Assembly (NCBI GenBank): GCA_028753945.1
Contig: JAPNXP010000001.1
Location: 5,384,501-5,448,500 of the forward strand
Direction of reading: 5' to 3'
Source: Hexactinellida sp. DTS-2022
Taxonomy: Eukaryota > Porifera > Hexactinellida
DNA length: 64,000 nt
The notes beneath the pieces are model-generated. The model was not told the DNA's origin. It worked only from the letters and a program-made list of their open reading frames with translations, and did not search any database. Of the stretch, positions 3,901 to 64,000 are shown piece by piece. The first letter of the stretch is position 1. Each line of letters opens with the position of its first letter. The translations under genes were made by a program, and so were the position numbers.

Positions 3901-6900
3901 TTCTGGTAGTTCTAACATGATGTCATCAAATGACAACAATGGTGACAAATCACACATGATGTCAGTTGATTCTGGCAGTTCTAACATGATGTCATCAAAT
4001 GACAACAATGGTGGTAAATCACACATGATGTCAATTGATTCTGGCAGTTCTAACATGTTGTCTTTTAATAATAACAACGGCGTCCCAGGTACTATGTTAA
4101 TTTACTATTTACTCATTTAAAATCTCTAATGTACGTTACTAATTAATTTTGAAATTATATATGATCGAAGTTTTAAGTTATTAACATGAATATCATAGTA
4201 AAAATCCAAAATTGCAGCCTGTGACGCATGTTCCTTTGGTGGCACTATATTTTGGTGGTGGTCTATTGAATTTGATAGTGACTCCAATGGAACATGCTGT
4301 CGACACAGGCTGCAATTTTGGATTTTTTTCGCCATGTCATGAACGTCTCATGGTGTTTAGACTCATTTAACAAGTTATTACGGGACAAAGGAACGATTGT
4401 TGAATTTGAAGATTATTTCTATGTTGAACCATCTTGAGTTTATTGCCATTCATTCATAATGTAAAGATACTAAATTATATAAATTATCTGTAATACCCTT
4501 TGCCCTCCAAGTACAAATTAATTTTAATCAATTTGTAATTTTGTACAAGTTTTTATGACCAACAACAATAAATATTACATCATATATCCGTACACAATAA
4601 ATAACTAGCTATCAACAAAGTTCTTTACCCATTATAACAATCGTAAGATAGTAAATAGGTTCATTCTGAATCAAAGCAATTTGTTTGCCTATTTGTAAAC
4701 GTCAACAACATGTAAACCTAATAGTTTCGTTAATTGAAAATCAGCATACTTATTTACTTAGAATGACAAAAGGAATTAAGTTTATATTCCCACTATAAAT
4801 ACGGTATAACTCCCCTATCACTCCAATACATTTCGGGCACCAACAGACACAGACGAATATTTATATAGATAGATATTCCATCTCATTAATCCATTGTTTG
4901 AATATCAGAAATCGTTCTGAAATTGAATAACTGTTGAGTGAAATTGAATTTTCATATAGGAGAAAACTTCAAACAACTAAGAATTAGAAATCGATTTATA
5001 TAGTAGCAGCTATTGAATCAAATTGAATTATTAATTTACAATAGAATACTTAATTGTACTTGAATTGTAACCATGATATCAAGAAATAGATTTATACAGT
5101 AATATCTATTGAATTAATTGAATTATTCATATAAAATAGAATTCTTTATTGTAACTATGATATAAGCAATAAACTTGGATCCTAATAACACCGAATCTAT
5201 TTTAATTATTCATAATAGTAGATCTTCTTCACCGAATCCACGAAATGATTGCATAATTGAATATTAATTTATTTACGATTTTTAGAAAGTTAAGGGTGAA
5301 TTGTGGCAACTTTGAGCCTAATTATCAGGAAAATGAGGACGAATTTAAAAATCGTTAAGAGCTTATTAGCTCCAAACTACTTTTTTGAAGCTATTGATTT
5401 GAAAAATATTTTTGTTATTGCATTTATTTTCCTATGGGACAAAAAAAGATAAAAGTCCCGTTAACAATTTTTCCAAATCGAAATTAATGAATCGTGACCC
5501 ACCGTGCACATCTGTAACCCATGAGACACCTATCCTGAAAATTTCAGTTCTTAGTTAATAAAACTCTGTTCTGTGGAGGATCTACGGGCTAATAATACTA
5601 AAAATCCAAAATTGCAGCCTGTGCCGACGCATTTCCCTTTGGAGTTACTACATTTTTGTTTGGGAACTAGTAGTGCCTCCAATGGGAATACTTTCGGCAC
5701 AGGCTGCAATTTTGGATTTTTTCGACATGTCATGAACGCCTCAAGGTGTTTACACACATTTATCAAGTTGTTACGGGATAAAGGATCGTTTGATAAATTG
5801 GAATTTTGTTTCTATCTTAAACCATCTTGCGTTTAATGCCATTCATTCATTATGTATAGATAATAAATGATAGAAATAGTTAATTCTTTTAAGCCCACCA
5901 TACACGATGCAACTTTGTTGCATCGTGTATGTTGAAATGTTGCGTGCAACTTTGTTGCACCGTGTATTTTGATTGTTGCACGCAATATTGTTGCATGCAA
6001 CATGTTGCATGGAAATTGGACATGTTCAATTTTCTTGAAACATTGTTGCACGAAAATATGGAAATTCAGTACATAATTTTCAGATTATCTTCGTTTACAT
6101 TTTTTCACATACACAAAACAATTGAAAATTCACATGTTAATGAATCATGACTTTTTAGTGTACCTATTTAATTTACTACTTACTTTCTCAATATCCTTAT
6201 TCAAGCCACCTATGATGCGAACACAAATGTATATATTAGAATTTTGAGCACGGTTTTAAAAATACTGATCGTATTGCTGCATATTCTTTTCCTAGAAATA
6301 CTACACATCTTAATTTATCCACGACCCGTTAACGACGTTTTTTGATTTTTGAATTAATCTAGAAAATATGGATTAGACACTTTTGGATTACACATGTACT
6401 AACCATTGTATTTCTAAGATTCGGGTAAATTCTAGTTATGGGCAGCTTCCGGACGACAGTGCCCGAATAAGGGAGGTTTGGATGTATATACTATAAATAT
6501 CCAGTTCTAACTAAGAATACCAAAATGGCTATACCTTATTAATACTGGACAGACGATCCATCCTTACGAAATTTCTATAACTGGATGTGTTAACTAAAAA
6601 AATTCTTTCATCAATAGATGAAATGCACTTTGCGTCTCTCGATTTTGATCCAATCCTTAACCCATGAGATCTCAATTTGCGTTGACGGGTCAAATGCAAT
6701 TTCCTCCGGCGAAGTATAATCATTTGGAATGCGGAAACGACAACGTGTGTTTTATCCACAATATTGGATTGTAAAATAACAAATCCATTGGGAATACACT
6801 TATAGTACTGATTTAAAATAATATTTTTACCATGTGTAATAAAGTAAATTCCATGCAACAATGTTGCACGAAAATAAATGTTGCATGCAACTTGTCGCAC

Positions 6901-8047
6901 GAAAACTGTGTTGCATGCAACATATTGCTTGCATCATTGTTGCGCCGTGATGTTACCTTGTTGCATGCAACTGTACTGCGTGCAACAGTTGCAGTCAACA
7001 ATGTTGCATCATGTATGGTGGGCTTAATACTTTTTCCAAATCGAAATTAATAAACCCCGGGTGATCCCAGGTGCACTGTGTACGTCTAGCATCTGTAACC
7101 CATGAGACACCTATCCTGAAAATTTCAGTTCTTAGTTGATAAAACTCTGTTCTGTGGAGGATCTACGGACTAATAATCGGTAACCAAAGCATTAAGATTA
7201 GAACTGGGCCACTATAGTATAGTATAGTCGGCACAGTAATAATTAACAGAGTATCATTTAACAGGTGGTGGTATGTGTAAACCAAACGATTACTGACTCT
7301 GTTTAAATAGGTACTGGATCGAGTAATGACCTGTCGAGCCTGCAGCGAGAAATGAATGTGCTCACCAATCAGATACGTCGGCTAGAGGCACAGATGGCAC
7401 GGCAGAGCGGGGCAGGTTCTCAGGTCTCTTCTAATCAGATGCAGCGAATAAAAAACGCAATACAGACTGCACAGGCTGAGCTTCGCCGCATTCAATCTCG
7501 CCTGCAGAACACTCAAAGTTCGGGTCAAAGGCTTGATACGAATAGCGAAGCCATGCTCGAGAAGAAATTATTGCAAGAAATGAAACGAATCGAAGCGCAG
7601 TTACGTCGCTTGCAGAATATGTATAATAACCAAAACAGCGGTATAGGAAGTGAAGAGAGCAACGGACAAACGGGGTTATCATTTGACAGTTTTGATTACG
7701 TTCCTAAATCTAATCAAAATACTAACATGAATGACCACGCTTTCAATCTTCCTGATGATTTATCTGTGTCTTCCAATCAGCAGGCCGATGACATCTTTGA
7801 TGCAGACCGAGACTTTGGATCCTTTGCCCAACCTGCCTCTGCAGATGATGGCGCAGAGTTTGAGGCAATTCAAGCGCAGTTTGACCAGAATTCTTTCCGA
7901 GCAAAGATCATTGCTATCGCATTCGGATCTGTTCTTGGGCTGGTACTGCTGGTGGGTGTTGTATTCGGTTGTATTATTAACGCCTTGCTCTGTCTCAGGC
8001 GGAAGAATAAAGGTACCAAAGCAGAGTCCGCTATCCTGACTACTTAA
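989..8047 (+). CDS. Ser/Met-rich repeat, coiled-coil, single-pass membrane protein (4 exons)
   Basis: Exons 989-1012, 1078-1108, 2571-4088 and 7311-8047 join with matching phases (0, 1, 1) at GT/AG borders (donors gtaagt, gtaagt, gtacta) and give 769 residues. Residues 1-18, MDFGRRFWIFLIALFLIK, form a typical signal peptide split over two tiny exons, which strongly supports the model. Residues 19-524 are imperfect repeats of about 23 residues rich in Ser, Asn, Asp, Gly and Met, with SHMMS and SSNMM words. Residues about 530-640 are Gln/Arg/Leu-rich with heptad spacing and should form a coiled coil. An acidic linker follows, then a membrane span at 724-753 and a 16-residue tail starting with RRK. 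It is inferred to be a type I surface protein. I recognise no named family. Intron 3 is 3.2 kb of repeats. ATTAAA at 8167 is a possible polyadenylation signal. Confidence 0.75.
1365..1718. repeat. Degenerate pogo/Tigger-type MITE (cgttataac family)
   Basis: Lies in intron 2 of the repeat-protein gene. It carries the family words gagttcgatcttaaaag and ggagttcgttataa and ends with gttataacaggagttgact followed by gta, the right end seen in the copies at 8185, 18962 and 22611. The left end is decayed. Confidence 0.6.
1782..2200. repeat. hAT-like MITE with GGTTAACC repeats
   Basis: The left end CAAGGCTGG matches in reverse the right end CCCACCCTTG, and inside each end are several copies of CGGTTAACCGG. 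The flanks cgctcgat and gctcgcct share gctcg, a poor relic of a target duplication. Lies in intron 2 of the repeat-protein gene. Confidence 0.5.
2571..4088 (+). repeat. Coding minisatellite, about 69-bp unit
   Basis: Exon 3 of the repeat-protein gene is a tandem array encoding about 22 variants of a 23-residue unit. Units at about 3227-3430 are almost identical at DNA level, pointing to recent duplication or gene conversion; others have diverged. A second unit type carries SNSMAFNADSS and LMPSS words. The reverse strand is also open for 507 codons (2554-4077), a by-product of the repeat. Confidence 0.85.
4200..4328. repeat. Long hairpin of the satellite family (intron copy)
   Basis: Arms begin with aaaatccaaaattgcagcc and end with its reverse complement, around a loop containing tatattttggtggtgg. 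The same hairpin occurs at 5600-5722 and about eleven times between 49.9 and 63.8 kb. The flank to 4480 is the reverse complement of flanks in that block. Confidence 0.85.
4480..5469. other. AT-rich intron sequence
   Basis: Part of intron 3 of the repeat-protein gene. It has short internally repeated words (ttgaattattaatt, gaaatcgatttata) but no open frame or recognisable transposon ends. Confidence 0.5.
5470..5590. repeat. Direct repeat partner of 7030-7177
   Basis: The run from tttttccaaatcgaaatt to ggatctacggg recurs almost unchanged at 7030-7177. It is also related to 61145-61260 in reverse orientation, so it belongs to the satellite unit of the 49-64 kb block. Confidence 0.8.
5600..5722. 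repeat. Second intronic copy of the long hairpin
   Basis: Perfect outer arms (ccaaaattgcagcctgtgcc and its complement) with a loop holding tttttgtttgggaactag. Same family as 4200-4328. Confidence 0.85.
5893..7023. mobile_element. PIF/Harbinger-like element with TIRs and a decayed transposase fragment
   Basis: GCCCACCATACACGATGCAA at the left matches in reverse gcatcatgtatggtgggc at the right, with TTAA on both sides. Subterminal DNA is packed with inverted TTGCATGCAA words. On the minus strand, 6529-6760 contains, in two frames, WVKDWIKIERRK followed by SSYRNFVRMD, which resembles the region before the DDE nuclease domain of Harbinger transposases. Stops and a frameshift make it a relic. The TTAA flanks would also suit piggyBac, so the class rests on the protein trace. 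Confidence 0.65.
7030..7177. repeat. Direct repeat partner of 5470-5590
   Basis: Near-identical to 5470-5590, with a small extra run (cccgggtgatcccagg). The two copies flank the hairpin at 5600 and the Harbinger-like element. Confidence 0.8.
7203..7237. repeat. Single 35-bp near-palindrome of the satellite family
   Basis: Reads ACTGGGCC, a CTATAGTATAG-type core, then CGGCACAGT; it is the reverse complement of the unit amplified at 50.3-51.1 kb. It sits 74 bp before exon 4 of the repeat-protein gene. Confidence 0.85.
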
Positions 8048-18800: not shown

Positions 18801-21800
18801 AAGTAATACTGAGCTATACATATACATTATAATACACTATAAAGGAATATTGCTTATATATAAAGATTATTTTCATTCCCAAGATATATTCCCGCTCAAA
18901 AATTGCATACAAATTATTCACCATATAACGATATAATTTCCTGGTCCAATGTATTCTTTTACAGTCAACTCCCGTTATAACGAAGTGCTTGGGACCATGG
19001 TTTAATTTCGTTATAAGCAGAGTTTGTTGTAAGCGTAGTTCGATCTTAAAAGAGTTCATTTCAAGTTTAATTCGTTGTAACCAGAGTTCATTATAAACGG
19101 ATTTCGTTATAACCGGAGTTCGTTGTAAGTAGAATTCGTTATAACCGGAGTTCGTTATAACCTGAGTAAATCAATAGATTATTTTAGAGGCTATATGGGA
19201 TTTGAATGACTTCGTTATAAGCGGAATTTCGTTATATCCATTACTTTGTAACCGAAGTTTTATTAATAATGTAATAAGATAGAAGGATTTCCGGGCTATA
19301 GAATGACTTCGTTATAAGCAGGTACTTCGTTATAAGCAGGTACTTCGTTATAAGCAGGTACTTCGTTATATCCGACTTGGTTATAACGGGAGTTGACTTT
19401 ATAGTGTTTCCACTGTATTGCTATTTTTTATGCATAATATTATCTCCAGAAATGGCCGCTCCATTGGGCCTCTCGACACTCTATCCTACGAGACACGGCC
19501 AGGGGCCTGCTCTATCTGCACCAAGCGGACCCTGACCACCCGCTCATTCACAGAGATGTTAAAACGTTAGTTACATAACATACTTGAGTAAATACCGTTA
19601 TGCAATGTGACAGAGGCATTCCCGACGCATTCATAAATAATTAAATCTATTACAGTCAGGTTATTTTATTGTTAAGATTTAACCAAAAATGTTGTCCAAA
19701 ATGGAGAGATTACATAATACTAGGCATCACTCAACTTAATACTTACAAACAATCCCTAAGTATGTTGTTAAATTGAGACCTGTTCATAATAAAGTTATAT
19801 AAATTAAGCAGACGAACAATATTCACAAAGCAGACCTGACTCTCTGACTGTATTGCCATTACTTTTTGATGTTAATTAATTAATTCCTCTTTAATTAGCA
19901 ATTTAGCACATGTATATCTCTTGGAAATTAGATAAATTGATTTGTGTGATTATGCAATATCATGGTCTAATGACTATCAATTATTGTCAATACTATAGGT
20001 ACATAATAATGAAAGACAGCCAATTATTAGTTATTATTTAACCTCTCAACCTCTTATCAATTGTAAGACAAACTAATCCAGAGAAGAGAGAACCGTATAA
20101 ATTTGTTATATTGTCCTAAATTCGTATATTATGTTACCAGAGTCAATTGATACATTAGTTTAGCTAGGAAAACAGGGGAATTAATCCTTGTACTAATTAA
20201 ACTATATTTCTCCTTATTCGTGTTTCGTATTAGCGAGAGTCGACAGTATATATATACACGTATTTATATAAATTCAATTCATATTTGATAATCACATAAC
20301 TTGCTCCTCAGTGCCAATGTGCTACTTGACTCCTCAATGCAGGCAAAAGTGGGGGACTTTGGTTTGGCTCGCCAGACGGACATTAACATAGAGAACAAGA
20401 CCGGGACTATCCTAGGGACCTCAGGGTATATCCCGCCTGAATACTACGCTGGGAAGATCAGTATTAAGACAGACGTGTATGCGTTTGGTGTTGTAGTGCT
20501 GGAGGTTCTCACGGGGTTAGCTTCTTTTGATGGGAGATGCGAACCGAAAGAACTGGTATGTATTTTTAAAATATTTTAATAGTGTTAATTTTCAAATCGT
20601 AATGCTTTTGTTTGGATTGGAAGTGCTTAAATTCCCTAATTGTTTGACATGAATAATCGAAGTGAGGACTTGTTTCGTTTATATGTAATATGTTTATTAT
20701 CATTTCGAGTCTTCTGTATTTATTTTTCAGAATATAGTAGTTTGCTAAATACTATTTTAGGATTGTTAGTAATTTATTTGTTGCAAGGAGTTATGGCTAG
20801 TATTTAGTAATATTTTCGTTTCAAATTTTGGCGAAATAAATATTTATAAAATTGTACATCTCAATAGTACATATGTATGGTACAATTCTTAGATCATTAA
20901 ACTCATTATATCAGTTAACCTTATACGTAATCTATCTATATATTAAAATCACAATTGTTGTGTGTGTGTGTGTTTGTCCAAAATTATTAGGAAAGACCAT
21001 AGGCTCTAGAAATCTGAAAATTTGCATGCAGGGGTAATTTACACGCTGATAACGATCTATTGGTTTTCTAAACGAAATAACGGGATTATGACGTTATAAA
21101 GCAGGGGTTCTCAACCGGGGGGGAATTTGGAGGATTTGGGGGGAAATTTTTTAACAATTTGGTCATACCTTATAATATCTCTACAAAGTAAAATTACATA
21201 AATACTTACAAAGGTGACCAAAATATACAAGTAACCTATTTACTATACAACACGATAAGTTTACTACTGATTCTTATTCATATTCTCTCTTGTTTGGAAT
21301 GAATAATATAATACAATTTACAGTTCACAATTATGGGGGGGGGGGAATGTCTAGAAATTTCGAAAGGGGGGTAACATGATTGTTTCGGGTAAGAACCCCT
21401 GTTATAAAGGGCCTCAGGAATTATCCAGGAGCGCGAGACGCTCCTTTTGGAGTATGACTTTAGGAAAAAATTCATTAGGAGCGCGAATAATTGGAATCTC
21501 TAACATTAATTTGTGATTTAGGCGTATGAAAATTGGATCAGACCAGGATTAGGAGCGTATTTACAAATGCCTGTATAATACACTCATAAAAGCACATATT
21601 TTGGAATAACTCTTTCAGTTTTTATCCGATTCGCCTACAATTTTAGGTGGCAAGACAACATGAAATGAGACATACGTTTACCGATTTATGGGTTTATGAC
21701 GTTACGTGGGAATTAATTATTATTAGTATTAGAATTTCTTTAAATTCATGCACATAATCACATATTAAATTCACTGCACTTATTGAGGTTTGGTGATTAC

Positions 21801-22296: not shown

Positions 22297-22929
22297 GTAA
22301 ATTAGAGTTCACAACTATAGCATTTCTGCCAATCGTCCAGGGGTTTAATCCTTTGCTCAGGGATTTTAATTTGAACAAACCTACTGTGTTTTATACTTCA
22401 TAGTACTTAAATCTTCATTTTTCAATTCATCGCATAATTGGCATATTTCCATTATAATTGCCCTGGCGCTTATTGTTTCCATTGCCCAAATTTATCCTCA
22501 ATTTTTCGAAAAATTTTATTGGAAAAAGGAAAATAATATATAGCTGGAATGTGATGGTTTTCAGCGACATAAACATACCGAAATTGCCAAAATCAATAAA
22601 AGCTAAATACTTTCAACTCCCGTTATAACGAAGTCGTTCAATGGTCCAAAAATTTTTTTACTTCGCTTACGACGAAATGGATATTATAAATTCCGCTTAT
22701 AACGAAGTCATTTATTTCCTATATAGCCTATAGGCTATACCGAATTCTGCTTATAACGAACTCCGGTTAGAACGAAATCAGCTTGTAATGAACTCTTTTA
22801 AGATCGAACTCCGCTAATAACTAACTCCGCCTATTGTGATGATAAACCAAATGTAGTAAATAGTTTAATATATTCTTACTTCACGAGAAGTGTTTAGTTT
22901 AACGATTTGCCTTGAATCTCCAACTATAT

Positions 22930-23599: not shown

Positions 23600-26500
23600 C
23601 TTACTCGTCGACCTCCTCACTGGATCGGTAGGAGTTGCCGAGGTAATCTAATTTGTCTTCTCTTGATCTGTACCTGATTCTGATATATTGTCATCCATAA
23701 TTCATTTCCATCTGAACGTTCCTCATTTCCCCTAGCAAGTGGGTATGTATCCCAATCCGAATAATTCCCAACTTATTGAGGTACATGCTTGTATTTATTC
23801 AGATGCACAACTTTACTGATTCCACTTTCATTATGTCTAAGTTGGACATTCACTCCCAATCTTGCTTTTACCGTCCAAGGGCAAACGAAAAGAGGTGACA
23901 ACGTATCTTTTTGAGGTTTATTTTATAATAAAACCAAATCACCTTCTTCTATATCGCTACTCTTGATACTAGTTAACCAATCCGAGAAAAGATTTGAGTT
24001 CGCGTAGTGAGGAAGGTGTAGTCCGTTCTCTAATTCGTTGAATCAACGAAGACATTGGACGATGCCCGTAGGCTGAAACAATATGTCCCACAAATTCTAC
24101 CTCAGTGGCAAATATACATTTATCCCTCCTAAGTTGCATTTTAGCCTATCTATATAATTCCAGTGTCTGACGTAAATGACTCAGATGTTCCTTGAAATTT
24201 TTTGAATATACTATTGTATCGTCCACGTATGCATCGCTTGATGGTGCGTCACGAAGTACTGAATCAATCGCTCTCTGATAAGTGGCCGGGGCATTAGTTA
24301 AGCCAAATGGCATAACAAGGACTTCGTACTGTCCCTGTGGGGTTACAAACGCCGATTTAGGAATATTATATCTTCGTCCCTAATTGGGATAGACCAATAC
24401 GCATAAGCCCCATCCAATTTGGAGAAAATAGTATTGCCATACTACTTATCTAGCATATCTCTGATATCTGGGAGAGGGTCTGCATCTTTGCGGGTAACAT
24501 CATCTAACCCTCTGTAATCCACCGCAAAACGCAGAGATCTATCCTTTTTCTCTACAAGAATGACTCTTGCTGGCCAAGGGGAACAGGATGGTCTGACAAT
24601 ACCATTGGTCAACATCTGATCAGCTGAATCGTTACTTCTTTCTCTGCACTTGGAGACATACGCATCCCTCTAACTTTGATTGGTAGCGCCGATCCAGTAT
24701 CAATTGCATGTTCCGATATCAGGGTAATTTTTGACGGGGCTTTCGAATTCACCTCCAACACATCACTAAAGGAGTCGAGGAGCTCGTTTAAAGCACGTTG
24801 TTCATCTTGTCGCATACCAAGTTGTAAATGCCAATCCACATTTCCTGAAGCCGTCTCCGATTCTGCCGATATTGCACATACGCATAGAGTTGCTGCTCTT
24901 GATAACACCTTTCCGCCACTGACCTTCGTTTGCATCGTAAGCCATTGGGCGCCTAGACGTACCCTATTTTCCTGACAATCAAATGTTGTAACTTCAAATC
25001 TTTTCAAGAAATCCCTGCCCAACCTAGAATTACGGTGTATTCCGGACTGACAATGATGCAAAACCTATGAGTAATAGCCATCGCCGATATCCACTTGGAC
25101 ATCCGCTGTTCCACACACTTCGACTGGATGAGACGAAAGACGTGACCAAAACTTGTTTCTCTCAAAAAGTGGATTTTATGGGTCTTGACAAATTGAGGTC
25201 CAGCACTGACGGTTGTGCTCCAGAGTCAAGCATCGCGAAGACGCGAACGTCCCCATAGAATCGAGCTTGACATCTATAAATACACTCTCAGATTTAAATT
25301 GATTCCCACTAGCCTTCCTTTTGACACGAAACTTTCTTAACGTAACAATCTGATCCGAAAGTACACGTTTCCCACATTTTTGGCAAAACACTTTAGAACA
25401 GTTGAATGATAAATGTCCTAGACCTAGAGTACCGAAAATCCAACACTCTTTAATCCCCTTACACGTGAGTCTGCAGTTGGCCTACCCGAATACATTCGTT
25501 AACTACCAGTACGACCCCAGTTCTTTGCAGTGTTGCTCGTTCCGTGCTTGTTACTAGTAATAAATACTTCTCCTTGTTCTTTTCTACCCTGGCCTAACTC
25601 TTCGATTACTCGTTCACCATGCACCAGTCTCTACAATCTTTGAATATGAGTCATTGGCCTTTTCGCTAGATTCTTGGATCAGTTTAACTGTGCCAAAGTT
25701 TCGGTTTCCCAAGTCAAGTGATATACCCTTGGCATTCAGTTCTTTCCGAATAAGGATGAGAAAATCTCGTGCTTTCTTAATATCCACCTCTTGGTGATCT
25801 GGTTCAGATATCCATGATTGGATCGGCCCTCTTATTGCCGACGGTAATTGATTAGTTAATATTAGACAGGCCATGTGGAGAGGGGCCTTAGCTTTCATAG
25901 CCGCTGACTTCAATTGATAAAATAAATCATCTACCTGTTGTCCTGGGGCCTTATTCACTAAACTTCTTAAACTTAGTTTGTGCTTAGTTTAAACTAAGTT
26001 TAAGCACAAACTAAGCACAAACTAAGTCTGAAACTAAGTCGGTATTCACGAAGCAAAACTAAGTTCAAACTAAGTCTAAACTTAGTTTGAACTTAGTTTG
26101 TGCTTAGTTTTGAGATATAACTTAGTTCTTGCTTAGTTTTATGTTGAAAAGTAAACAAAAAGTTAAGTCTACTTCTTACCAGACTTAACTGAATATTTCA
26201 CGATAATATACTTGTATTTTATAATTATTTAATTTATTTACGAATTATTTATCGTAACTTATCGTGGTTGTATCACTAATAGTGGTTGTATCACTGAGTT
26301 TAGTTTTGAGAAGTTAAGAAAACTTCGAAAAAAGTAGTAATTACTTAGTTTAGACTAAGTTTAAGTTTAAGTTTAAGCAAAAACTAAGTCAATACTTAGT
26401 TTAGACTAAGTTTAAGTTAAAGCAAAACTAAGTCAATACTTAGTTTAGACTAAGTTTAAGTTTAAGTTTAAGCAAAAACTAAGTTTTTGGATAAGTTTGA

Positions 26501-26940
26501 GAAGTTAAATAAACTTAGCATAAACTAAGTCGAGACTTAGTTTAGACTTAGTTTAAACTAAGTTTAAGTTTAAGTTTAAGTTTAAGAAATGTTAGTGAAT
26601 AAGGCCCCTGGTTGCCAATCAGAGCGACACCATTCAGCATTTCCTGTTGCGGATCTGAAGGTGGATCGATATTTTCAATCAGAATTTGGAAAGCTTCTTC
26701 TACTGACCTAGACTCTTCGACAACTTCCCTGACCAGTTGTCTCTCTGCTGGCCGACGACAAAGGAAGGATGGGAGCATTTATATTGTCTTGCATTTCTCA
26801 TTCTATTCCATAAGTGGAGTACCGCTGCCAAAATAGAGGCTGCCACTTTCTAATAAGCTCGCCTTCATGTAATGGTGGAATAGCTAGTCCGCTTATAGTA
26901 ATATTGGACTTGAGATCTCCCGTTGATGCCGTTGCCATAA
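23600..26940 (-). mobile_element. Decayed, internally deleted Gypsy-type LTR retroelement
   Basis: Read on the minus strand from right to left: gag-like open segments (26548-26778 and 25614-25958, separated by a MITE), a Cys-rich zinc-knuckle-like region near 25370-25460, a protease with the active-site DSGA at 25216-25227, an open segment 24609-25061 entering the reverse transcriptase, the catalytic YVDD at 24218-24229, and a thumb region to about 24010. Next comes sequence like the end of an integrase (GDLVLL, VHLNKYKHVPQ) at about 23770-23960. RNase H and the integrase core are missing, so the element has an internal deletion as well as frameshifts and stops. No matching LTR pair was found. 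Protein order is that of Ty3/Gypsy elements. Confidence 0.85.
25946..26607. mobile_element. Harbinger-type MITE inserted in gag, CTG target
   Basis: Ends GGGCCTTATTCACTAA and TTAGTGAATAAGGCCC are exact complements; CTG flanks both sides (25943-25945, 26608-26610). The interior is made of many copies of ACTTAGTTTAAACTAAG-like words. Three-base targets are typical of PIF/Harbinger elements. It splits the gag frame of the retroelement. Confidence 0.87.
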
Positions 26941-46676: not shown

Positions 46677-46952
46677 TAATATATTTTAATTTAGCACTGT
46701 AAATTCACCTTTATTAGAGAACCACAGTACAATGGCTACAAAATTTCTTTATAGCTAATCACATAATTATTTTTTATAACTATTGATTTTCTTCATAGCG
46801 TATAAATCTTTCGCCTTTTACTAAAGATTTCCGTGGAGAAGATCAATGAAATAGTTTTATCAATTTTTTTCCAGCCTCTAGTATTATCTACTAGAGGCCT
46901 CGTTATAAAAGTGAGCTAGACATTTTTTCATATTTCAATACAGCTTGTATTA

Positions 46953-48795: not shown

Positions 48796-49972
48796 ACTGT
48801 GCCGACTATAGTATAGTATAGTGGCCCAGTATACACCATTATACATAGAGGGCAGAAACTTGGGATGTTGGTGCGGTGTGACCGTCTAATTTGCACCTGG
48901 GGTTACGATTTTTAATCAAATAAATTTAACACCTATTTAATCTAATTATGGCTCATAACATGAAATAATTAATAGTGAACTTGATAAAATTTACATATTT
49001 GAATAGAGAATTTAATCCTACACCTTTTGGCAAATCACAAATGTTCAATTTGGCCTAGGTTTGCGTCATAATTGGGGTACCAATCTCCTGTATTTACTCA
49101 CACTTCAGATTCTGTAAAACTGTTAAATCTAGTTCCTTTGTTTCAACTTGTAATAATTATATTGATTTAACTTGTTAAATCTTACTCTATTGTTTCAACT
49201 TGCGATAAATATATTGTTTTAACTTATAAATTCCTGCTGGCTTCTATTTAATTGTAGTATTACTATACAATGGATTAAATAAAAATATATAATACGTATA
49301 AGGAATTTTTATCTTAACTCACTCACCGTAGATAACATTGCTAAAATAAATACTAATAATATAATTTAAAAGATTTGGCTCGAGATGCACATCTGTAACA
49401 TATGGGACACCGTTGCTAAAAATTTGAGCTCCGGGGCAATCCAACTAAAGTTGGTATCATCGAGTGTGCGGAATTGAAATTTGGTTCCAAATTAATTTAA
49501 ATTACTATTTATGACAAATAATAAAACTTAATAAATTCAAGTTGACATTGAAATTAGTGTTAAATTATTAATAATATTAATTATTATTTATACGAATTTG
49601 ATAAATAGCATTAATCTCAGAGATGATATAAGATAGAAACAAACTTCCAATTTATCAATTGATCCTTGTGCCACGTAACACTTCTACAAATGTGTCTTGA
49701 CACCTTGAGATGATGATGACATCGTTAAAAAAAATGTGTTTTTACAATTTTGTGAATTATATATTTCGAATGGTTGGTTTGGTGTTGGGTCATCACCCAA
49801 CACGCACATGAAAATGCTTAGTCTTCACCTATTATATTCTACTGAAACTTGAATATCTCTAAAATGAAGTGAGCTAAATGGAAACTTCCACCACTCTAAG
49901 GGTCGTTGCCTTCTGAAAAACCTTTCTAAAATAAATTAACACCTTCAACCTTCATAGTGATGATGAGATGGC

Positions 49973-50105
49973 AAAAATCCAAAATTGCATCTGTGCCGAC
50001 AGCATTTTCCTTGGAGACACTATCAATTACCCAACCAGTAGCCACCAAAAGATAGTGCCACCAAAGGGAAATGCGTCGGCACAGATGCAATTTTGGATTT
50101 TTACA
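49973..50105. repeat. Long hairpin of the satellite, first copy in the block
   Basis: Arms aaaatccaaaattgcatctg and its complement. Further copies lie at about 52285-52422, 53744-53868, 54808-54936, 55799-55923, 56650-56775, 58073-58195, 60157-60283, 61016-61135, 62213-62331 and 63640-63762. Arms are conserved, loops (tcaataaaccaccaacaaaa) vary slightly. Confidence 0.9.
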
Positions 50106-50292
50106 ACTTGAAACATTAGAAATAGATTTTACAGTTTTACTGAAACTGAAGTGTTGAGTAAACCAAGAAATTTCAACACCCATTAATGGCACAAATTAAA
50201 CGCTTCATGAAATTTGTTCTTCACCCATCAGACGCAGAATTTTATGGTGAATCTAAATATGAAATAAAATTTGGGGGTTTAGTAAAACATTT

Positions 50293-51113
50293 TTACTGTG
50301 CCGACTATACTATAGTATAGTGGCCCAGTATTAGAATCACTGCCTTTATTATTTTTTTTATTATTATTATTACTGTGCCGACTATACTATAGTATAGTGG
50401 CCCAGTATTGGAATCACTGCCTTTATTATTTTTATTTTTATTTTTACTGTGCCGACTATACTATAGTATAGTGGCCCAGTATTAGAATCACTGCCTTTAT
50501 TATTACTGTGCCGACTATACTATAGTATAGTGGCCCAGTTCTAATCTCACTGCCTTTATTTTTTACTGTGCCGACTATACTATAGTATAGTGGCCCAGTA
50601 TTGGAATCACTGCCTTTATTATTATTACTGTGCCGACTATACTATAGTATAGTGGCCCAGTATTAGAATCACTGCCTTTATTATTATTACTGTGCCGACT
50701 ATACTATAGTATAGTGGCCCAGTATTGGAATCACTGCCTTTATTATTATTACTGTGCCGACTATACTATAGTATAGTGGCCCAGTATTGGAATCACTGCC
50801 TTTATTATTTTTATTATTACTGTGCCGACTATACTATAGTATAGTGGCCCAGTATTAGAATCACTGCCTTTATTATTATTATTACTGTGCCGACTATACT
50901 ATAGTATAGTGGCCCAGTATTAGAATCACTGCCTTTATTATTATTATTACTGTGCCGACTATACTATAGTATAGTGGCCCAGTATTGGAATCACTGCCTT
51001 TATTTATATTATTATTACTGTGCCGACTATACTATAGTATAGTGGCCCAGTATTGGAATCACTGCCTTTATTATTATTACTGTGCCGACTATACTATAGT
51101 ATAGTGGCCCAGT
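50293..51113. repeat. Minisatellite of 13 near-palindromes
   Basis: Thirteen copies of a 35-bp unit with arms ACTGTGCCGA and TGGCCCAGT around the perfect palindrome CTATACTATAGTATAG, each followed by attggaatcactgccttt and a TTA/TTATTT spacer of changing length. Period is about 58-86 bp. The units are almost invariant while the spacers vary. Confidence 0.95.
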
Positions 51114-54100
51114 TCTAATCTTACTGCCTTTAATATTATTTTTATTATTATTATTTTTTCTCCGTAGACGGTGCCCTGGCCAGAGCTTTATAGTTGATGG
51201 GCTTAAACTTTGCATGTAGGTGCGATGGGACCGTCTAATTTGCACCTGGGGTTACGATTTTTGATTAACAAATTTTGGACACATCTTTAACACCTTTCAA
51301 AATTTGTCTGGTCCATAACTCAAAATATGTTTTACTAAACCCCCAAATTTTATTTCATATTTGGATTCGCCATAAAATTCTGCGTCTGATGGGAGAATAA
51401 ATTTTCCAATAAAGGGGTCAATTTCTGCCATAAATGGGGGTTGAAATTTCTTTGTTTACTCACACTTCTATTTCAGTAAAGTGTTAAATCTAATTCTATT
51501 GTTTCAACTTGTAATAATTATATTGATTTAACTTGTTAAATCCTACTCTAGTGATTCAACTTGCTATAATTATATTGATTTAACTTGTGAATTCAAGCTG
51601 GCTTCTATTTTGCAATTGAAAATTAAGATTATATATTTCATAACAACGACATATTATGTGATTATATTTACTTCTGCGAGAATATAATTGCACTGTTAAT
51701 ATACTGACGTAATTAATTATAAATAATTCAGTTTGTATTTAACTTATATAGAAGCTTCCAATTTGTATATTAGAGGTTATCGAGTGTGCGGAATTGAAAT
51801 TTGATAGATAAATTAATTAATTGATTATTTATGACAAAATAATTGAACTTAATAATTGTATGTTGACATTGAAATTGGTGTCATATTATAAATAATATTA
51901 ATAATTATTTATACTAATTAATTAAATATCATAAATCTCAGAGATCATAGAAGATAGAAACAAACTTTCAATATATCAATTGGTCCTTATGACACGTGCC
52001 ACCTATACAAGTGGGTCTTGACACCTTGAGGTGATGATGACATCGTTAAAAAAATGTGTTTTTACAATTTTGTTAATTCTATATTTAAAATGGGTTAGTT
52101 AATGTTGGTTGATGACCCAACACCCACTTAAAAAATGCTGAGTCATTACAGATTATATTCTACTGAAACTTGAATATCTCTTTAATGAAGTGAGCTGAAT
52201 GGAAACTTCCACCACTCTAAAGGGTCGTTGTCTTCTGAAACACCTTTCTGAAATAATTTAACACCTTCATGGTGATGATGACATGGCGAAAAAAAAAATC
52301 CAAAATTGCAGCCTGTGCCGACAGCATGTTCCTTTGGAGGCACTATCAATAAACCAACAACAAAATATAGTGCCACCAAAGGATCATGCGTCGGCACAGG
52401 CTGCAATTTTGGATTTTTTATTATTATTTATATTATTATTTTTTCTCCGTAGACGGTGCCCTGGCCAGAGCTTTATGGTTGATGGGCTGAAACTTGGCAT
52501 GTAGGTTCGGAGTCGACGTCTAATTTGCACCTGGGGTTACGATTTTTTATTAACAAATTTTTGACACATCTTTAAGACCTTTCAAATTTTGTCTGGTCCA
52601 TAACTCAAAAGTTGTTTTACTAAACCCCCAAATTTTATTTCACATTTGGACTCGCCATAGAATTCTGCGTCTGATGGGACAAGAAAGTTTCGCATAAAGG
52701 GGTCAATTTCTGCCATAAATGGGCGTTGAAATTTCTTTGTTTACTCACACTTCAATTTCAGTAAAACTGTGAAATCTAATTCCATTGTTTCAACTTGTAA
52801 TAATTATATTGATTTAACTTGTTAAATCCTACTCTATTGATTCAACTTGCGATAATTATATTGATTCAACTTATAAATTCCAGCTGGCTTCTATTTAATT
52901 GTAGCATTACTATACAATGGATTAAATTAAATTAATTTATATAAGGAATTTGTTGACTTTACTCAACTAACCGTGGATAACATTGCTAAAATAAATAACT
53001 AATAATTTAATTTATTATCATTAAGTAATGAATGAATGGCATTAAACTAAAGATGGTTTATGATAGAACCGTTAAGATTTTACATTCCACAACAACGACA
53101 GATTAAGTGATTATATTTATTTCGGCGAGAATATTCTTTTTGCACAATTAATGTACTGACGTAATTTATTATAATTAATTCCTTTTGTATTTAACTTATA
53201 GAATTTTCCAATTGGATTATTGGGGTTATCGAGTGCGCTGAATTCAAATATGATAGTGAAATTCGATTTAAATTAATAATAAGTGCAAATAATTGAACTG
53301 TATTTATTTTGCTGTACATAATAATGGTGTTAAATTATTAATTTATTAATTAAATATTTATACTAATTAGGTAAATTTCATTAATCTCAGAGATGATACA
53401 AGATAGAAACAAACTTTCAATTTATCAATTGGTCCTTATGCCAGGTACCACCTATACAAGTGGGTCTTGACACCTTGAGGTGATTATGACATCGTCAAAA
53501 AAATGTATTTTTACAATTTTGTTAATTCGATATTTAAAATGGGTTAGTTGATGTTGGGTGATGACCCAACACACACATAAAAAATGCTGAGTCATCAGCT
53601 ATTATATTCTACTCAAACTTGAATATCTCTAAAATTATATGAACTAAATGGAAACTTCCACCACTCTAAGGGTCGATGCCTTCTGTAACACCTTTTTGAA
53701 ATAATTTAACACCTTCATAGTGATGATGACATGGCGAAAAAAAAAATCCAAAATTGCAGCCTGCGCCGACAGCATGTTCTCTTGGAGGCACTATAAATAA
53801 ACAACCAACAAAATATAGTGCCACCAAAGGAACATGCGTCGGCACAGGCTGCAATTTTGGATTTTTTTACTGTGCCGACTATACTATAGTATAGTGGCCC
53901 AGTTCTAATCTCACTGCCTTTATTACTGTGCCGACTATATTTTTTACTGTGCCGACTATACTATAGTATAGTGGCCCAGTATTAGAATCACTGCCTTTAT
54001 TATTATTTTTACTGTGCCGACTATACTATAGTATAGTGGCCCAGTATTGGAATCACTGCCTTTATTTATATTATTATTATTTTTATTTTTTCTCCGTAGA

Positions 54101-55083
54101 CGGTACCCTGGCCACACCTTTATACATTGAGGGCTGAAACTTGCCATGTAGATGCGAAGTGCCCTTCTAATTTGCACCTGGGGTTACGATTTTTGATTAC
54201 GAAATTTTGCACACATCTTTAACACCTTTCAAAATTTGTCTGGTCCATAACTCAAAATATGCTTTAATAAACCCCCAAATTTTATTTCATATTTGGATTC
54301 ACCATAAAATTCTGCGTCTGATGGGTGAAGAAATTTTTCAATAAATGGTTTAATTTCTGCCATAAATGGGGGTTGAAATTTCTTTGTTTACTCACACTTC
54401 AATTTCAGTAAAAGTGTCAAATCTAATTCCATTGTTTCAGCTTGTAATAATTATATTGATTTAACTTGTTAAATCCTACTCTAGTGATTCAACTTGCGAT
54501 AATTATATTGATTTAACTTATAAATTGCAGCTGGCTTCTATTTAATTGTAGTATTACTATAACTATACAATGGATTAAATAAAATCTAATAATATAAGGA
54601 ATTTATTGACTTTACTCAAATCACCGTGGACAACATTGCTAAAATAAATAACTAATAATATAATTTATTATCAATACATAATGAATGAATGGCAGTAAAC
54701 TCAAGGTGGTTTATGATAGAAAAAACTTCAAATTCACCAATCGTTCTTTGGACTCGGACCAAATAACAAATGCTTCTTCACACCTTGGGCGTTGATGACT
54801 TGTCGAAAAAAAATCCAAAATTGCAGCTTGTGCCGACAGCATGTTCCTTTGGAGGCACTATCAATAAACTACCATCAAAATATAGTGCCACCAAAGGATC
54901 ATGAGTCGGCACAGGCTGCAATTTTGGATTTTTTTACTGTGCCGACTATACTATAGTATAGTGGCCCAGTATTGGAATCACTGCCTTTATTTTTATTATT
55001 ATTACTGTGCCGACTATACTATAGTATAGTGGCCCAGTATTGGAATCACTGCCTTTATTTATATTATTAATATTTTTATTTTT

Positions 55084-56781: not shown

Positions 56782-58850
56782 TCTCCGTAGACGGTGCCCT
56801 GGCCTGAGCTTTATAGTATATGTGCTGAAACTTGACATGTAGGTGCGATGGGACCGTCTAATTTGCACCTGGGGTTACGATTTTTGATTAACAAATTTTT
56901 GACACGTCTCTAACACCTTTCAAAATTTGTCTGGTCCATAACACAAAATATGTTTTACTAAACCCCAAATTTTATTTCACATTTGGATTCATCATAAAAT
57001 TCTGCGTCTGATGGGAGAAGAAATTTTTCAATAAAGGGGTCAATTTCTGCCATAAATGGGGGTTGAAATTTCTTTGTTTACTGACACTTCAATTTCAGTA
57101 AAGTGTTAAATCTAATTCTATTGTTTCAACTTGTAATAATTATATTGATTTAACTTGTTAAATCCTACTCTAGTGATTCAACTTGCGATAATTATATTGA
57201 TTTAACTTATAAATTCCAGCTGGCTTCTATTTAATTTAAGTATTACTATACAATTGATTAAATTAAATAATATAATATAAGGAATTTGTTGACTCAACTC
57301 AACCACCATGGATAACATTGCTAAAATAAATAACTAATAATATAATTTATTATCGATACATAATGAATGAATGGCATTAAACTAAAGATGGTTTATGATA
57401 GAACCGTTAAGATTTTACATTCCACAACAACGACAGATTAAGTGATTATATTTATTTCGGCGAGAATATTCTTGCACAATTAATGACTGACTTAATTAAT
57501 TATAATTAATTCATTTTGTATTTAACTTATAGACGGTTCCAAATAGATTATTGGGTTATCGAGTGCGTGGAATTCAAATATTATAGTGAAATTCAATTTA
57601 AATTAATAATAATTGCAAATAATTGAACTTAATTTATTTTGCTGTATATAATAATGGTGTTAAATAATAAATAAATTAATTAAATATTTATACTAATTAG
57701 ATAAATTTCATTAATCTCAGAGATGATACAAGATAGAAACAAACTTTCAATTTATCAATTGGTCCTTATGCCAGGTACCACCTATACAAGTGGGTCTTGA
57801 CACCTTGAGGTGATTATGACATCGTCAAAAAAATGTATTTTTACAATTTTGTTAATTCGATATTTAAAATGGGTTAGTTGATGTTGGGTGATGACCCAAC
57901 ACACACATAAAAAATGCTGAGTCATCAGCTATTATATTCTACTCAAACTTGAATATCTCTAAAATTATATGAACTAAATGGAAACTTCCACCACTCTAAG
58001 GGTCGATGCCTTCTGTAACACCTTTTTGAAATAATTTAACACCTTCATAGTGATGATGACATGGCGAAAAAAAAAATCCAAAATTGCAGCCTGCGCCGAC
58101 AGCATGTTCTCTTGGAGGCACTATAAATAAACAACCAACAAAATATAGTGCCACCAAAGGAACATGCGTCGGCACAGGCTGCAATAGTGGATTTTTTTTT
58201 TTTTTCTCCGTAGACGGTACCCTGGCCAGAGCTCTATAGTTGATGGGCTGAAACTTGGCATGTAGGTGCGGTGGGACCGTCTAATTTGCACCTGGGGTTA
58301 CGATTTTTTATTAAGAAATTTTTGACACATCTTTAACACCTTTCAGATTTTGTCTGGTCCATAACTCAAAATATGTTTTACTAAACCCGAAAATTTTATT
58401 TCATATTTGGATTCCCCATAAAATTCTGCGTCTGATGGGAGAAGAAAACCTTCAAAAAAGGTTTTATTCCTGCCATTAATGGGGGTTGAAATTTCTTTGT
58501 TTACTCACACTTCAGTTTCAGTAAAAGTGTTAAATCTAATTCCATTGTTTCAACTTGTAATAATTATATTGATTTAACTTGTTAAATCCTACTCTAGTGA
58601 TTCAACTTGCGATAATTATATTGATTCAACTTATAAATTCCAGCTGGCTTCTATTTAATTGTAGCATTACTATACAATGGATTAAATTAAATTAATTTAT
58701 ATAAGGAATTTGTTGACTTTACTCAACTCACCGTGGATAACATTGCTAAAATAAATAACTAATAATTACTGTGCCGACTATACTATAGTATAGTGGCCCA
58801 GTATTGGAATCACTGCCTTTATTATTATTATTATTATTATTTATATTATT

Positions 58851-59766
58851 ATTTTTTCTCCGTAGACGGTGCCCTGGCCAGAGCTTTATGGTTGATGGGC
58901 TGAAACTTGGCATGTAGGTTCGGAGTCGACGTCTAATTTGCACCTGGGGTTACGATTTTTTATTAACAAATTTTTGACACATCTTTAACACCTTTCAAAT
59001 TTTGTCTGGTCCATAACTCAAAAGTTGTTTTACTAAACCCCCAAATTTTATTTCACATTTGGACTCGCCATAGAATTCTGCGTCTGATGGGACAAGAAAG
59101 TTTCGCATAAAGGGGTCAATTTCTGCCATAAATGGGCGTTGAAATTTCTTTGTTTACTCACACTTCAATTTCAGTAAAACTGTGAAATCTAATTCCATTG
59201 TTTCAACTTGTAATAATTATATTGATTTAACTTGTTAAATCCTACTCTAATGATTCAACTTGCGATAATTATATTGATTCAACTTATAAATTCCAGCTGG
59301 CTTCTATTTAATTGTAGCATTACTATACAATGGATTAAATTAAATTAATTTATATAAGGAATTTGTTGACTTTACTCAACTAACCGTGGATAACATTGCT
59401 AAAATAAATAACTAATAATTTAATTTATTATCATTAAGTAATGAATGAATGGCATTAAACTAAAGATGGTTTATGATAGAACCGTTAAGATTTTACATTC
59501 CACAACAACGACAGATTAAGTGATTATATTTATTTCGGCGAGAATATTCTTTTTGCACAATTAATGTACTGACGTAATTTATTATAATTAATTCCTTTTG
59601 TATTTAACTTATAGAATTTTCCAATTGGATTATTGGGGTTATCGAGTGCGCTGAATTCAAATATGATAGTGAAATTCGATTTAAATTAATAATAAGTGCA
59701 AATAATTGAACTGTATTTATTTTGCTGTACATAATAATGGTGTTAAATTATTAATTTATTAATTAA
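58851..59766. repeat. Long duplicate of 52437-53350
   Basis: The two stretches share even private variants (gtaggttcggagtcgacgtc, gacaagaaagtttcgcat, ctgaattcaaatatgatag). Likewise 57674-58195 matches 53350-53868. Together they suggest segmental exchange inside the block. Confidence 0.88.
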
Positions 59767-62700
59767 TTATTTATACTAATTAATTAAATATCATAAATCT
59801 CAGAGATCATAGAAGATAGAAACAAACTTTCAATTTATCAATTGGTCCTTATGGCACGTGCCACCTAAACAAGTGGGTCTTGACACCTTGAGGTGATGAT
59901 GACATTGTTAAAAAAATGTGTTTTTACAATTTTGATAATTCGATATTTAAAATGGGTTAGTTGATGTTGGGTGAGGACCCAACACTCACATAAAATATGC
60001 TGAGTCATTAGCTATTATATTCTACTCAAACTTGAATATCTCTAAAATGAAGTGAACTAAATGGAAAATTCCACCACTCTAAGGGTCGTAGCATTCTGAA
60101 ACACCTTTCTGAAATAATTTAACACCTTTATAGTGATGATGAATTGGCGGAAAAAAAAAAATCCAAAATTGCAGCTTGCGCCGACAGCATGTTTCTTTGG
60201 AGGCACTATCAATAAACTACCAACAAAATATAGTGCTACCAAAGGAGCATGCGTCGGCACAGGCTGCAATTTTGGATTTTTTTTAATTTATTATCAATAC
60301 ATAATGAATGAATGGCATTAAACTAAAGATGGTTTATGATAGAACCGTTAAGATTTTACATTCCACAACAACGACAGATTAAGTGATTATATTTATTTCG
60401 GCGAGAATATTCTTTTTGCACAATTAATGTACTGACGTAATTTATTATAATTAATTCCTTTTGTATTTAACTTATAGAATTTTCCAATTGGATTATTGGG
60501 GTTATCGAGTGCGCTGAATTCAAATATGATAGTGAAATTCGATTTAAATTAATAATAAGTGCAAATAATTGAACTTTATTTATTTTGCTGTACATAATAA
60601 TGGTGTTAAATTATTAATTTATTAATTAAATATTTATACTAATTAGCTAAATTTCATTAATCTCTGAGATGATACAAGATAGAAACAAACTTTAAATTTA
60701 TCAATTGGTCCTTATGCCAGGTACCACCTATACAAGTGGGTCTTGACACCTTGAGGTGATGATGACATCGTCAAAAAAATATATTTTTACAATTTTGTGA
60801 ATTAAATAATTCGCATGGGTTGGTTGGAGTTGGGTGAATACCCAACACGCACTTTAAAAATGCTGAGTCATCACAGATTATATTCTACTGAAACTTGAAT
60901 ATCTCTCAAATGAAGTGAGCTAAATGGAAACTTCCACCACTCTAAGGGTCGTTGCCTACTGAAACACCTTTCTGAAATAATTTAACACCTTCATAGTGAT
61001 GATGACTAGGCGAAAAAAAATCCAAAATTGCAGCTAGTGCCGACAGCATGTTCCTTTGGAGGCACTATCAATAAACCACCACCAAAATATAGTGCCACCA
61101 AGGGAACATGCGTCGGCACAGGCTGCAATTTTGTTATTATTGGTCCGTAGATTCTCCACAGAACAGTGTTTTATTAACTAAGAGCCCAAATTTTCAGGAT
61201 ATGTGTCTCATGGGTTACAGATGTGCACCTGGGGTCACGATTTTTTATTACATTTTTTTGGACACATTTTTGCACCTGTTTAATATTGAAACTGGAACAA
61301 TAAATAGTACCCGAAAATTAAATTTATATGCATTCGATAGAAAATTAAATTCTACACCTTTTAACAGTGCACGAATTTTAAAATTGTACTTAGTTTGTGC
61401 CACAATTGAGTTGCAAGTTTCCTTTGTTTACTAACACTTCAGTTCAATTGAAAGTGTTAAATCTAATTCTATTGTTTCAACTCGTTATTATTATATTGAT
61501 TCAACTTGTGAGATCGAGTAGGCTTCTATTTTCTAATTGGAAACTAAGATTGTACATTCCATAACAACGACAGATTGTGTGATTATATTTCCTTCTGCTA
61601 GAATATTATTGCACTATTAATAGACTGACGTAATTAATTATAATTAATTCAGTCAGTATATTACTTATATAGATGCTTCCAATTTGTTTATTAGGAGTTA
61701 TCGAGAGTGCGGAATTGAAATTTGATAACCAAATTAATTAATTAATTATTTATGACAAAATAATTTAACTTAATAAATATAAGTTGACATTGAAATTGGT
61801 GTTAAATGATAAATAATATTAATAATTATTTATACTAATTAAGTAAATATCATAAATCTCAGAGATCATAGAAGATAGAAACAAACTTTCAATTTATCAA
61901 TTGGTCCATATGGCACGTGCCACCTATACAAGTGGGTCTTGACACCTTGAGGTGATGATAACTTCGTTAAAAAAATGTGTTTTTACAATTTTGTTAATTC
62001 AACATTTAAAATGGGTTAGTTGGTGTTGGGTGATGACCCAACACTCACATAAAAAATGCTGAGTCATCAGCTATTATATTCTACTCAAACTTGGATTATC
62101 TCTAAAATTTAGTGAACTAAATGGAAACTTCCACCACTCTAAGGGTCGATGCCTTCTGAAACACCTTTTTGAAATAATTTAACACCTTCATAGTGATGAT
62201 GACATGGCTGAAAAAAAATCCAAAATTGCAGCTGTGCCGACAGCATGTTCCATTGGAGGCACTATCAATAAGCCATCACCAAAATATAGTGCCACCAAAG
62301 GAACATGCGTCGGCACAGCTGCAATTTTGGATTTTTTTTTTTTTCTCCGTAGACGGTGCCCTGGCCTGAGCTTTATAGTTGATGGGCTGAAAGTTGGCAT
62401 GTAGGTGCGATGGGACCGTCTAATTTGCACCTGGGGTTACGATTTTTGATTAACAAATTTTGGACACATCTTTAACACCTTTCAAAATTTGTCTGGTCCA
62501 TAACTCAAAATATGTTTTACTAAACCCCCAAATTATATTTCATATTTAGATTCATCTTAAAATTTTGCGTCTGTTGGGAGAAGAAAACTTTTAAAAATGA
62601 GTTTAATTTTTGCCATAAATGGGGGTTGAAATTTATTTGTGTACTCACACTTCAATTTCTGTAAAAGTGTTAAATCTAATTCCATTGTTTTAACTTGTAA

Positions 62701-64000
62701 TAATTATATTGATTTAACTTGTTAAATCTTTCACTATTGTTTCAACTTGCGATAATTAAATTGATTCAACTTATAAATTCCAGCTGGCTTCTATTTAATT
62801 GTAGCATTACTATACAATGAATTAAATTAAATTAATTTATATAAGGAATTTGTTGACTTTTCTCAACTCACCGTGGATAACATTGCTAAAATAAATAACT
62901 AATAATTTTATTTATTATCAATAAGTAATGAATGAATGGCATTTAACTAAAGATGGTTTATTATAGAACCGTTAAGATTTTACATTCCACAACAACGACA
63001 GATTAAGTGATTATATTTACTTCTGCGTTAATATTATTGCACTGTTAATATACTGACGTAATTAATTATAATTAATTCAGTCAGTATATGACTTATATAG
63101 ATGCTTCCAATTTGTTTATTAGGGGTCATCGAGTGTGCGGAATTGAAATTTGATGGACAAATTAATTTATTTATTATTTATGACAAAATAATTAAACTTA
63201 ATAAATATAAGTTGACATTGAAATTGGTGTTAAATTATAAATAATATTAATAATTATATATACTAATTAATTAAATATCATAAATCTCAGAGATCATAGA
63301 AGATAGAAACAAACTTTCAATTTATCAATTGGTCCTTATGGCACGTGCCACCTATACAAGTGGGTCTTGACACCTTGAGGTGATGATGACATCGTTAAAA
63401 AAATGTGTTTTTACAATTTTGTTAATTCGATATTAAAAATGGGTTAGTTCATGTTGGGTGATGACCCAACACTCACATAAAAAATGCTGAGTCATCAGTT
63501 GTTATATTCAACTCAAACTTGAATATCGCTAAAAGGAAGTGAACTAAAACGAAACTTCCACCACTCTAAGGGTCGATGCCTTCTGTAACACCTTTTTGAA
63601 ATGATTTAACACCTTTATAGTGATGATGACTTGGCGAAAAAAAATCCAAAATTGCATCCTGTGCCGACAGCATGTTCCATTGGAGGCACTATCAATAAAC
63701 CACCAACAAAATATAGTGCCACCCAAGGAACATGCGTCGGCACAGGATGCAATTTTGGATTTTTTATTTTACTGTGCCGACTATACTATAGTATAGTGGC
63801 CCAGTTCTAATCTCACTGCCTTTATTTATATTATTATTATTTCTCCGTAGCAGGTGCCCTGGCCACACCTGTATACATAGAGGGCTGAAACTTGGCATGT
63901 AGATTCGGAGTCGACGTCTAATTTGCACCTGGGGTTACGATTTTGTATTAACAAATTTTTTACACATCTTTAACACCTTTCAAAGTTTGTCTGGTCCATA

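Follow-up and report, generated by a model that had tools for sequence, protein, structure and literature searches.

Results

The array and the element that it heads

The window, that is, the whole stretch of 64,000 nucleotides of glass sponge DNA analysed here, lies in a genome of 112.4 Mb assembled in 18 contigs. Between positions 50296 and 51112 it holds thirteen copies of the 33-mer CTGTGCCGACTATACTATAGTATAGTGGCCCAG, identical in all 13, and the 12 spacers between them are T-rich, variable in length and made up of nine distinct sequences, in agreement with the sequence-only reading of this DNA, which had described a thirteen-fold near-palindrome array with variable spacers. The palindromic core of the unit is matched 22 times in the window at up to two mismatches (20 of them exactly), against 0.05 matches expected from shuffled sequences. 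The array is the front part of a longer element, spanning about 50295-52419 and composed of the hairpin array, a non-coding body and a large 3' hairpin, which is a non-autonomous copy of a Helentron, a type of rolling-circle transposon that carries an endonuclease, and is followed head to tail by further elements downstream. This element and the related features in the window are listed below.

50296..51112, + strand: thirteen-fold array of the 33-bp 5'-terminal hairpin unit (a 35-bp near-palindrome when the flanking A and T are counted)
51113..51158, + strand: T-rich spacer from the last unit to the element body
51159..52293, + strand: non-coding element body of the type beginning TCTCCGTAGACGG, similar to many other copies
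52294..52419, + strand: 3'-terminal large hairpin, which holds the inverted repeat GTCGGCACAG and ends in GGATTTTTT
48797..48829, + strand: single 5' unit of a related element upstream, whose 3' hairpin lies at about 49973-50102
53870..54044, + strand: three intact units and one truncated unit, directly behind the 3' end of the preceding element
54937..55037, + strand: two units, directly behind the 3' end of the preceding element
58769..60276, + strand: one-unit element nested within another copy, for which empty sites were found
63772..63804, + strand: single unit, the beginning of an element that runs past the window end
4205..7236, - strand: two related elements head to tail, the 5' end being the single unit at 7204-7236

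The single copies of the unit noted by the earlier reading were found again on both strands (at 48797, 58769, 63772 and 7204-7236), one such copy being placed by that reading in an intron of a gene at 989-8047; its satellite units, where they adjoin the array, proved to be element bodies and 3' ends from this very transposon family. A stretch of roughly 200 bp (50103-50294) that separates the array from the 3' hairpin of the upstream element is an inverted copy of body sequence at 51323-51518, at 86% identity.

Conservation of the unit

Across the genome the exact 33-mer occurs 4938 times and its 16-bp core 5757 times, while the reversed core used as a control was not found (0 occurrences); these genome-wide counts are free of selection by the core, and those based on the arms (5795, 5428 and 5217, given below) require both arms to be exact. 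The core is exact in 4938 of the 5795 units with both arms exact (85.2%), and conversely both arms are kept around 4938 of the 5757 exact cores (85.8%). With the stem of the core fixed and the centre free, 5428 exact-arm units were counted, and 5217 with the centre fixed and the stem free, so that 490 such units are changed only in the six central bases and 279 only in the ten stem bases. This corresponds to a per-base change of 1.65% at the centre versus 0.57% in the stem, an approximately threefold difference, and the invariant core proposed earlier is therefore borne out within the array (13/13), but not as a uniformly invariant sequence genome-wide. The looser centre suits a hairpin with a relaxed loop, a pattern that is not in itself proof of pairing; at the apical pair, no compensatory change was seen, as C15G was found alone 47 times and together with G20C 0 times.

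The first 20 loci fetched from elsewhere in the genome comprised 12 picked by an exact core match and eight taken at arbitrary places, two of which (L024 and L027) contained units; L001-L008 overlap one another or L009, and were left out of the script counts. One of the fetched loci, L025 (C9:2500000-2509999), has a G+C content of 0.56, compared with 0.37 in the window, and represents a sharply different region of the genome or of the assembly. The final sample contained 35 arrays or single units, with a total of 139 units and sizes from 1 to 26, which does not bear out the locus-specific slippage product without other arrays that would have refuted the earlier reading. Mean pairwise identity was 98% among the 30 compared of 31 body-proximal units, a value inflated for the core by the choice of loci through it. 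Within a type, element bodies show 71-97% identity per 100-column block; between types C and G the figure is about 60% in a rough alignment. In 110 units, the 20 bp directly behind the unit reach a mean pairwise identity of 74%, versus 98% for the unit itself (again inflated for the core), and not the equal variation of core and spacers that would have refuted the earlier reading. The unit is far more conserved than the element body.

Element ends and insertion sites

On our reading, one of a few related bodies in the same orientation comes behind 29 of the 30 unit groups found in the window and in the loci sampled first, in some cases after damaged units; the one group with no related body behind it lies in L012. 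The trinucleotide TTA precedes the first unit in 33 of the 35 arrays or single units of the final sample, and what stands before this TTA is unrelated DNA, the 3' end of another element, or damaged units. The unit forms the 5' boundary of the element beside target DNA. When bodies were compared, the other end proved to be fixed as well, as a large hairpin that ends in CAATTTTGGATTTTTT and lies, in L015, about 1.2 kb downstream; the exact 29-mer of this 3' end occurs 2713 times genome-wide, a number to which both hairpin arms can contribute. The equivalent hairpin at 53737-53866 of the window folds as DNA at -52.2 kcal/mol (z -15.5), and at 130 nt the 3' hairpin is much larger than the printed Helentron examples.

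The left arm of the unit, CTGTGCCGAC, returns inverted as GTCGGCACAG inside the 3' hairpin (10 bp, located 20 bp from the 3' end), which provides the subterminal inverted repeats at both ends that characterise Helentrons and HINEs. A lone unit, folded as DNA from 50293 to 50329, likewise forms a hairpin (-8.3 kcal/mol, z -4.65), so that at the 5' end an inverted repeat and the bases downstream of it make up a hairpin of the Helitron2 type. The ends of canonical Helitrons (Helitron1), 5'-TC and CTRR-3' without a 5' hairpin, were not found in this family, whose ends read TTA-CTGTGCC and GGATTTTTT.

Empty sites could be recovered for two of the six elements tried with their flanks, and for the other four none was found. 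One is the element with a single unit at 58769; the other is a cluster of two elements in L016, matched by positions 2134-2273 of L014, with flanks 100% and 98.6% identical. Both insertions split a run of T residues and produced no target duplication, which agrees with the T-rich TT target of Helentrons, for which the insertion preference is given as TT in the accessible part of PMC4067079.

Autonomous copies

A search of the genome with the Helitron_like_N profile gave at least 151 matches (150 of 292 candidates were scored), which fall into two score groups. Among the matches listed, at least 20 have open frames of 1652-1709 codons, and all of these belong to the weaker-scoring group. In the one copy that was translated (L034/L033, protein P0001), a single frame of 1700 amino acids contains Helitron_like_N (PF14214, 8e-29), a PIF1 helicase (PF05970, 8e-25) and an endonuclease (Exo_endo_phos_2; PF14529, 8e-07), hence the Rep and helicase with a fused C-terminal endonuclease expected of a Helentron; Helentrons often have a protease of the OTU type in addition, and here an OTU-like C-terminus of the autonomous frame (PF02338, E 0.08) fell below the cut-off. 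In this copy three units precede the 5' region and the 3' hairpin stands behind the gene. Four further gene-bearing loci of the weaker-scoring group were sampled near their ends only, and with these included the 3' hairpin was present in five of five gene-bearing loci and 5' units in three of five (1, 3 and at least 26 units). The matching 5' body of the gene-bearing copy has at least 26 units directly before it at C2 and a single unit at C12. No unit was found in the 4.35 kb upstream of the copy at C16, and two units situated 6.6 kb upstream of the Rep match at C1:9.19 Mb may or may not belong to that gene. Autonomous and non-autonomous copies therefore have terminal sequences in common, as Helentrons and their derivatives do.

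The second RepHel group, with Helitron_like_N scores of about 220 bits and frames of up to 1930 codons (L029-L032), showed neither an array-type unit nor the 3' hairpin in its four 3.5-kb loci, which stop short of the element ends.

Organisation of arrays and clusters

In the 26-unit array a block of seven spacers is repeated exactly, and identity over the first 16 bp is more frequent between adjacent spacers than in shuffled order (0.354 vs 0.250, p 0.007). Composite 5' ends were seen in L013 and L020, where units are followed by a short piece of body, by units again and again by body. These patterns suggest that two processes, block duplication and self-insertion, have left their traces in the arrays. 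Between arrays, two shared two-spacer runs were detected, which had been looked for as a sign of starts from inner units. The share of exact units is lower at the outermost position than further in (17/25 vs 92/104, p 0.026), in counts raised by the selection of loci through the core.

After correction of the list of 3' ends (46 entries minus 8 that were left arms read backwards, with two rows of "other DNA" recast as body starts), 38 remained, 30 of which directly adjoin the 5' part of another element, either a unit (11) or a unit-less body (19), a share too high for the genome as a whole because the sample leans to arrays. Of the rest, seven are followed by other DNA and one lies at the end of its locus. 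It might be thought that such head-to-tail clusters come from concatemers, an origin that we do not favour since neighbouring elements differ in body type.

Discussion

Taken as a whole, in its observed and its inferred parts, the best explanation of our results makes the unit the hairpin at the 5' terminus of a Helentron family, and we hold this with high confidence. The sequence-only reading had listed a subterminal transposase site among three options; the evidence selects this one, with the site being terminal rather than subterminal. Its view that these are recognition-type sites and not a drifting satellite is upheld as well, given units of constant dyad symmetry set among free spacers, to which protein binding is predicted. 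The Helentron assignment also accounts for one of the major dispersed repeats of this genome, which could otherwise be taken for satellite or for binding sites of the host.

Comparison with known systems, for which we refer to the accessible parts of the papers cited, shows both close parallels and differences. Helentrons and HINEs of the DINE-1 type, as described in PMC4067079, have a Rep-helicase and endonuclease in autonomous copies, subterminal inverted repeats and a 3' stem-loop, and the present family resembles them in all of these (PMC4067079), as well as in T-rich insertion without duplication, abundant non-coding derivatives and a variable number of terminal Ts; it differs in a row of up to at least 26 copies of the 5' hairpin, in a 3' hairpin of about 130 bp, compared with a short one there, and in its 10-bp inverted repeat inside the 3' hairpin, compared with 12-15 bp in mite HINEs. 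For assignment to one family an inverted repeat of 11 bp is asked in the same source, and the 10 bp found here are shorter. Helitron2 (PMC3627910) likewise forms a 5' hairpin from the inverted repeat and downstream bases and has hairpins at both ends, with inverted repeats of 8-15 bp that encompass the 10 bp seen here; a single 5' hairpin is described there, however, and its protein lacks the endonuclease, as summarised in PMC4067079. The FoHeli elements of Fusarium oxysporum (PMC5148889) also carry a repeated 5' terminal sequence before one 3' terminus, which was explained by self-insertion, after which transfer runs from the outer 5' terminus as far as the first 3' terminus, yet there the repeats are one or few, 31-85 bp long and mostly in partial copies, whereas here up to at least 26 units are found, also on gene-bearing copies. 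The Cg_HINE elements of the Pacific oyster (PMC7492417) are Helentron derivatives too, with tandem arrays dispersed through the genome, but their repeats measure 140-180 bp and are central, between two end modules. Single 5' hairpins (Helitron2 and Helentrons), duplicated 5' termini (Fusarium) and central arrays, common in HINEs, are thus already known from these sources. We found no report of long 5'-terminal hairpin arrays in the literature searched, which covered few subscription papers, and the piles of up to at least 26 hairpins, on autonomous copies as well, are an extreme variant.

As to how such an element might work, the element's Rep, the domain expected to catalyse rolling-circle transposition in Helentrons, would recognise the unit hairpin, nick beside it and start a strand transfer that would stop at the 3' hairpin, in which case the array could be regarded as a pile of alternative 5' termini. 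New copies may insert into the T-rich spacer that directly follows an existing 5' hairpin, a route that seems to fit the fact that these spacers are of the preferred target type, and could later leave with the outermost hairpin as start and the first 3' end as stop, with block duplication probably building part of the array. It is possible, and we propose it tentatively as something rather doubtful, that the family keeps in this way a battery of interchangeable 5' start hairpins, where insertions into spacers add starts, the element survives mutation of its outermost end, and the number of starts evolves by birth and death. If so, the damaged outermost units (17/25 exact, compared with 92/104 of the inner ones) would be the footprint of back-up starts. 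The simplest view would require an intact outermost unit, and damage to these units argues against it; either transposition can start from inner units, or a small sample selected through the core is misleading us.

The strongest contender, to which we would give somewhat less than an even chance, is that the array is a passive minisatellite at the 5' end of the element, which grows as a result of slippage or unequal exchange and whose unit count has no role in transposition. The exact duplication of seven spacers, the likeness of neighbouring spacers beyond that of shuffled order and the passive-looking arrays of HINEs elsewhere (PMC7492417, in the part accessible) all favour this, but if whole periods had slipped, unit and spacer would be expected to drift together, and in the window 13/13 identical units stand against nine sequences in 12 spacers; moreover, the pieces of body between units in L013 and L020 show insertion. 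That the units drive the transposase gene as repeats with promoter or enhancer function seems unlikely to us. They do lie upstream of the gene in autonomous copies and hold a TATA-like sequence, and the 5' monomers of some retrotransposons offer an analogy; non-coding elements, however, keep a single unit at their boundary, and the inversion of the arm at the 3' end would be needless for a promoter.

Dyad symmetry and strong conservation would equally be expected of sites for a host DNA-binding protein, or of a replication site, unconnected to transposition, which had been the other options of the earlier reading. We consider this very improbable, as 31 body-proximal units precede a recognised element body, 29 of 30 unit groups are followed by one, and the units mark insertion boundaries; nothing observed in the sequences pointed to a host protein or to nucleosome phasing. 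Even less credible is that the units, read on the other strand, belong to a non-LTR retrotransposon or SINE as its 3' stem-loop and (TAA)n tail; the sharp boundary with a T-rich flank would suit such a tail, and we rejected it on account of two fixed ends instead of random truncation, two empty sites without duplication, and the Rep-helicase gene. Matches to RVT_1 were also listed, neither tied to the unit nor excluded from it. The preferred reading, that of a Helentron 5' terminus, has a wider bearing, as the choice of the 5' end by Helentrons, and why some of them carry several, has been little tested. Thousands of copies are available in this genome, their start hairpins before one 3' end numbering from 0 to at least 26, together with the gene-bearing copies listed above, so that both the choice of start and the growth of arrays could be read by circle or long-read sequencing.

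Other features of the window

A search of the window for structured RNAs returned above the gathering score only a U5 spliceosomal RNA (46778-46896, 92.9 bits), away from the array. Around the array there were 24 sub-threshold matches, mostly to miRNA-type hairpin families, the best being MIR530 on the 3' hairpin at 49970-50107 (E 5e-07, 45.8 bits versus a cut-off of 85); we regard these matches as hairpin artefacts. A PIWI-like gene, which gives the DNA an animal look, is located at 30524, and an open frame of 523 codons, made of 69-bp repeats and rich in Ser, Asn, Asp and Met, at 2549-4120. Several arrays of 11-bp units resembling AAACTTAGTTT, with a 44-bp derivative, occupy positions 26001-26586. 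Short arrays of 16-18 bp units around TTCGTTATAA were seen at 19010-19370, 22736-22834 and 1427-1486, and presumably recall the ends of pogo/Tigger-type transposons.
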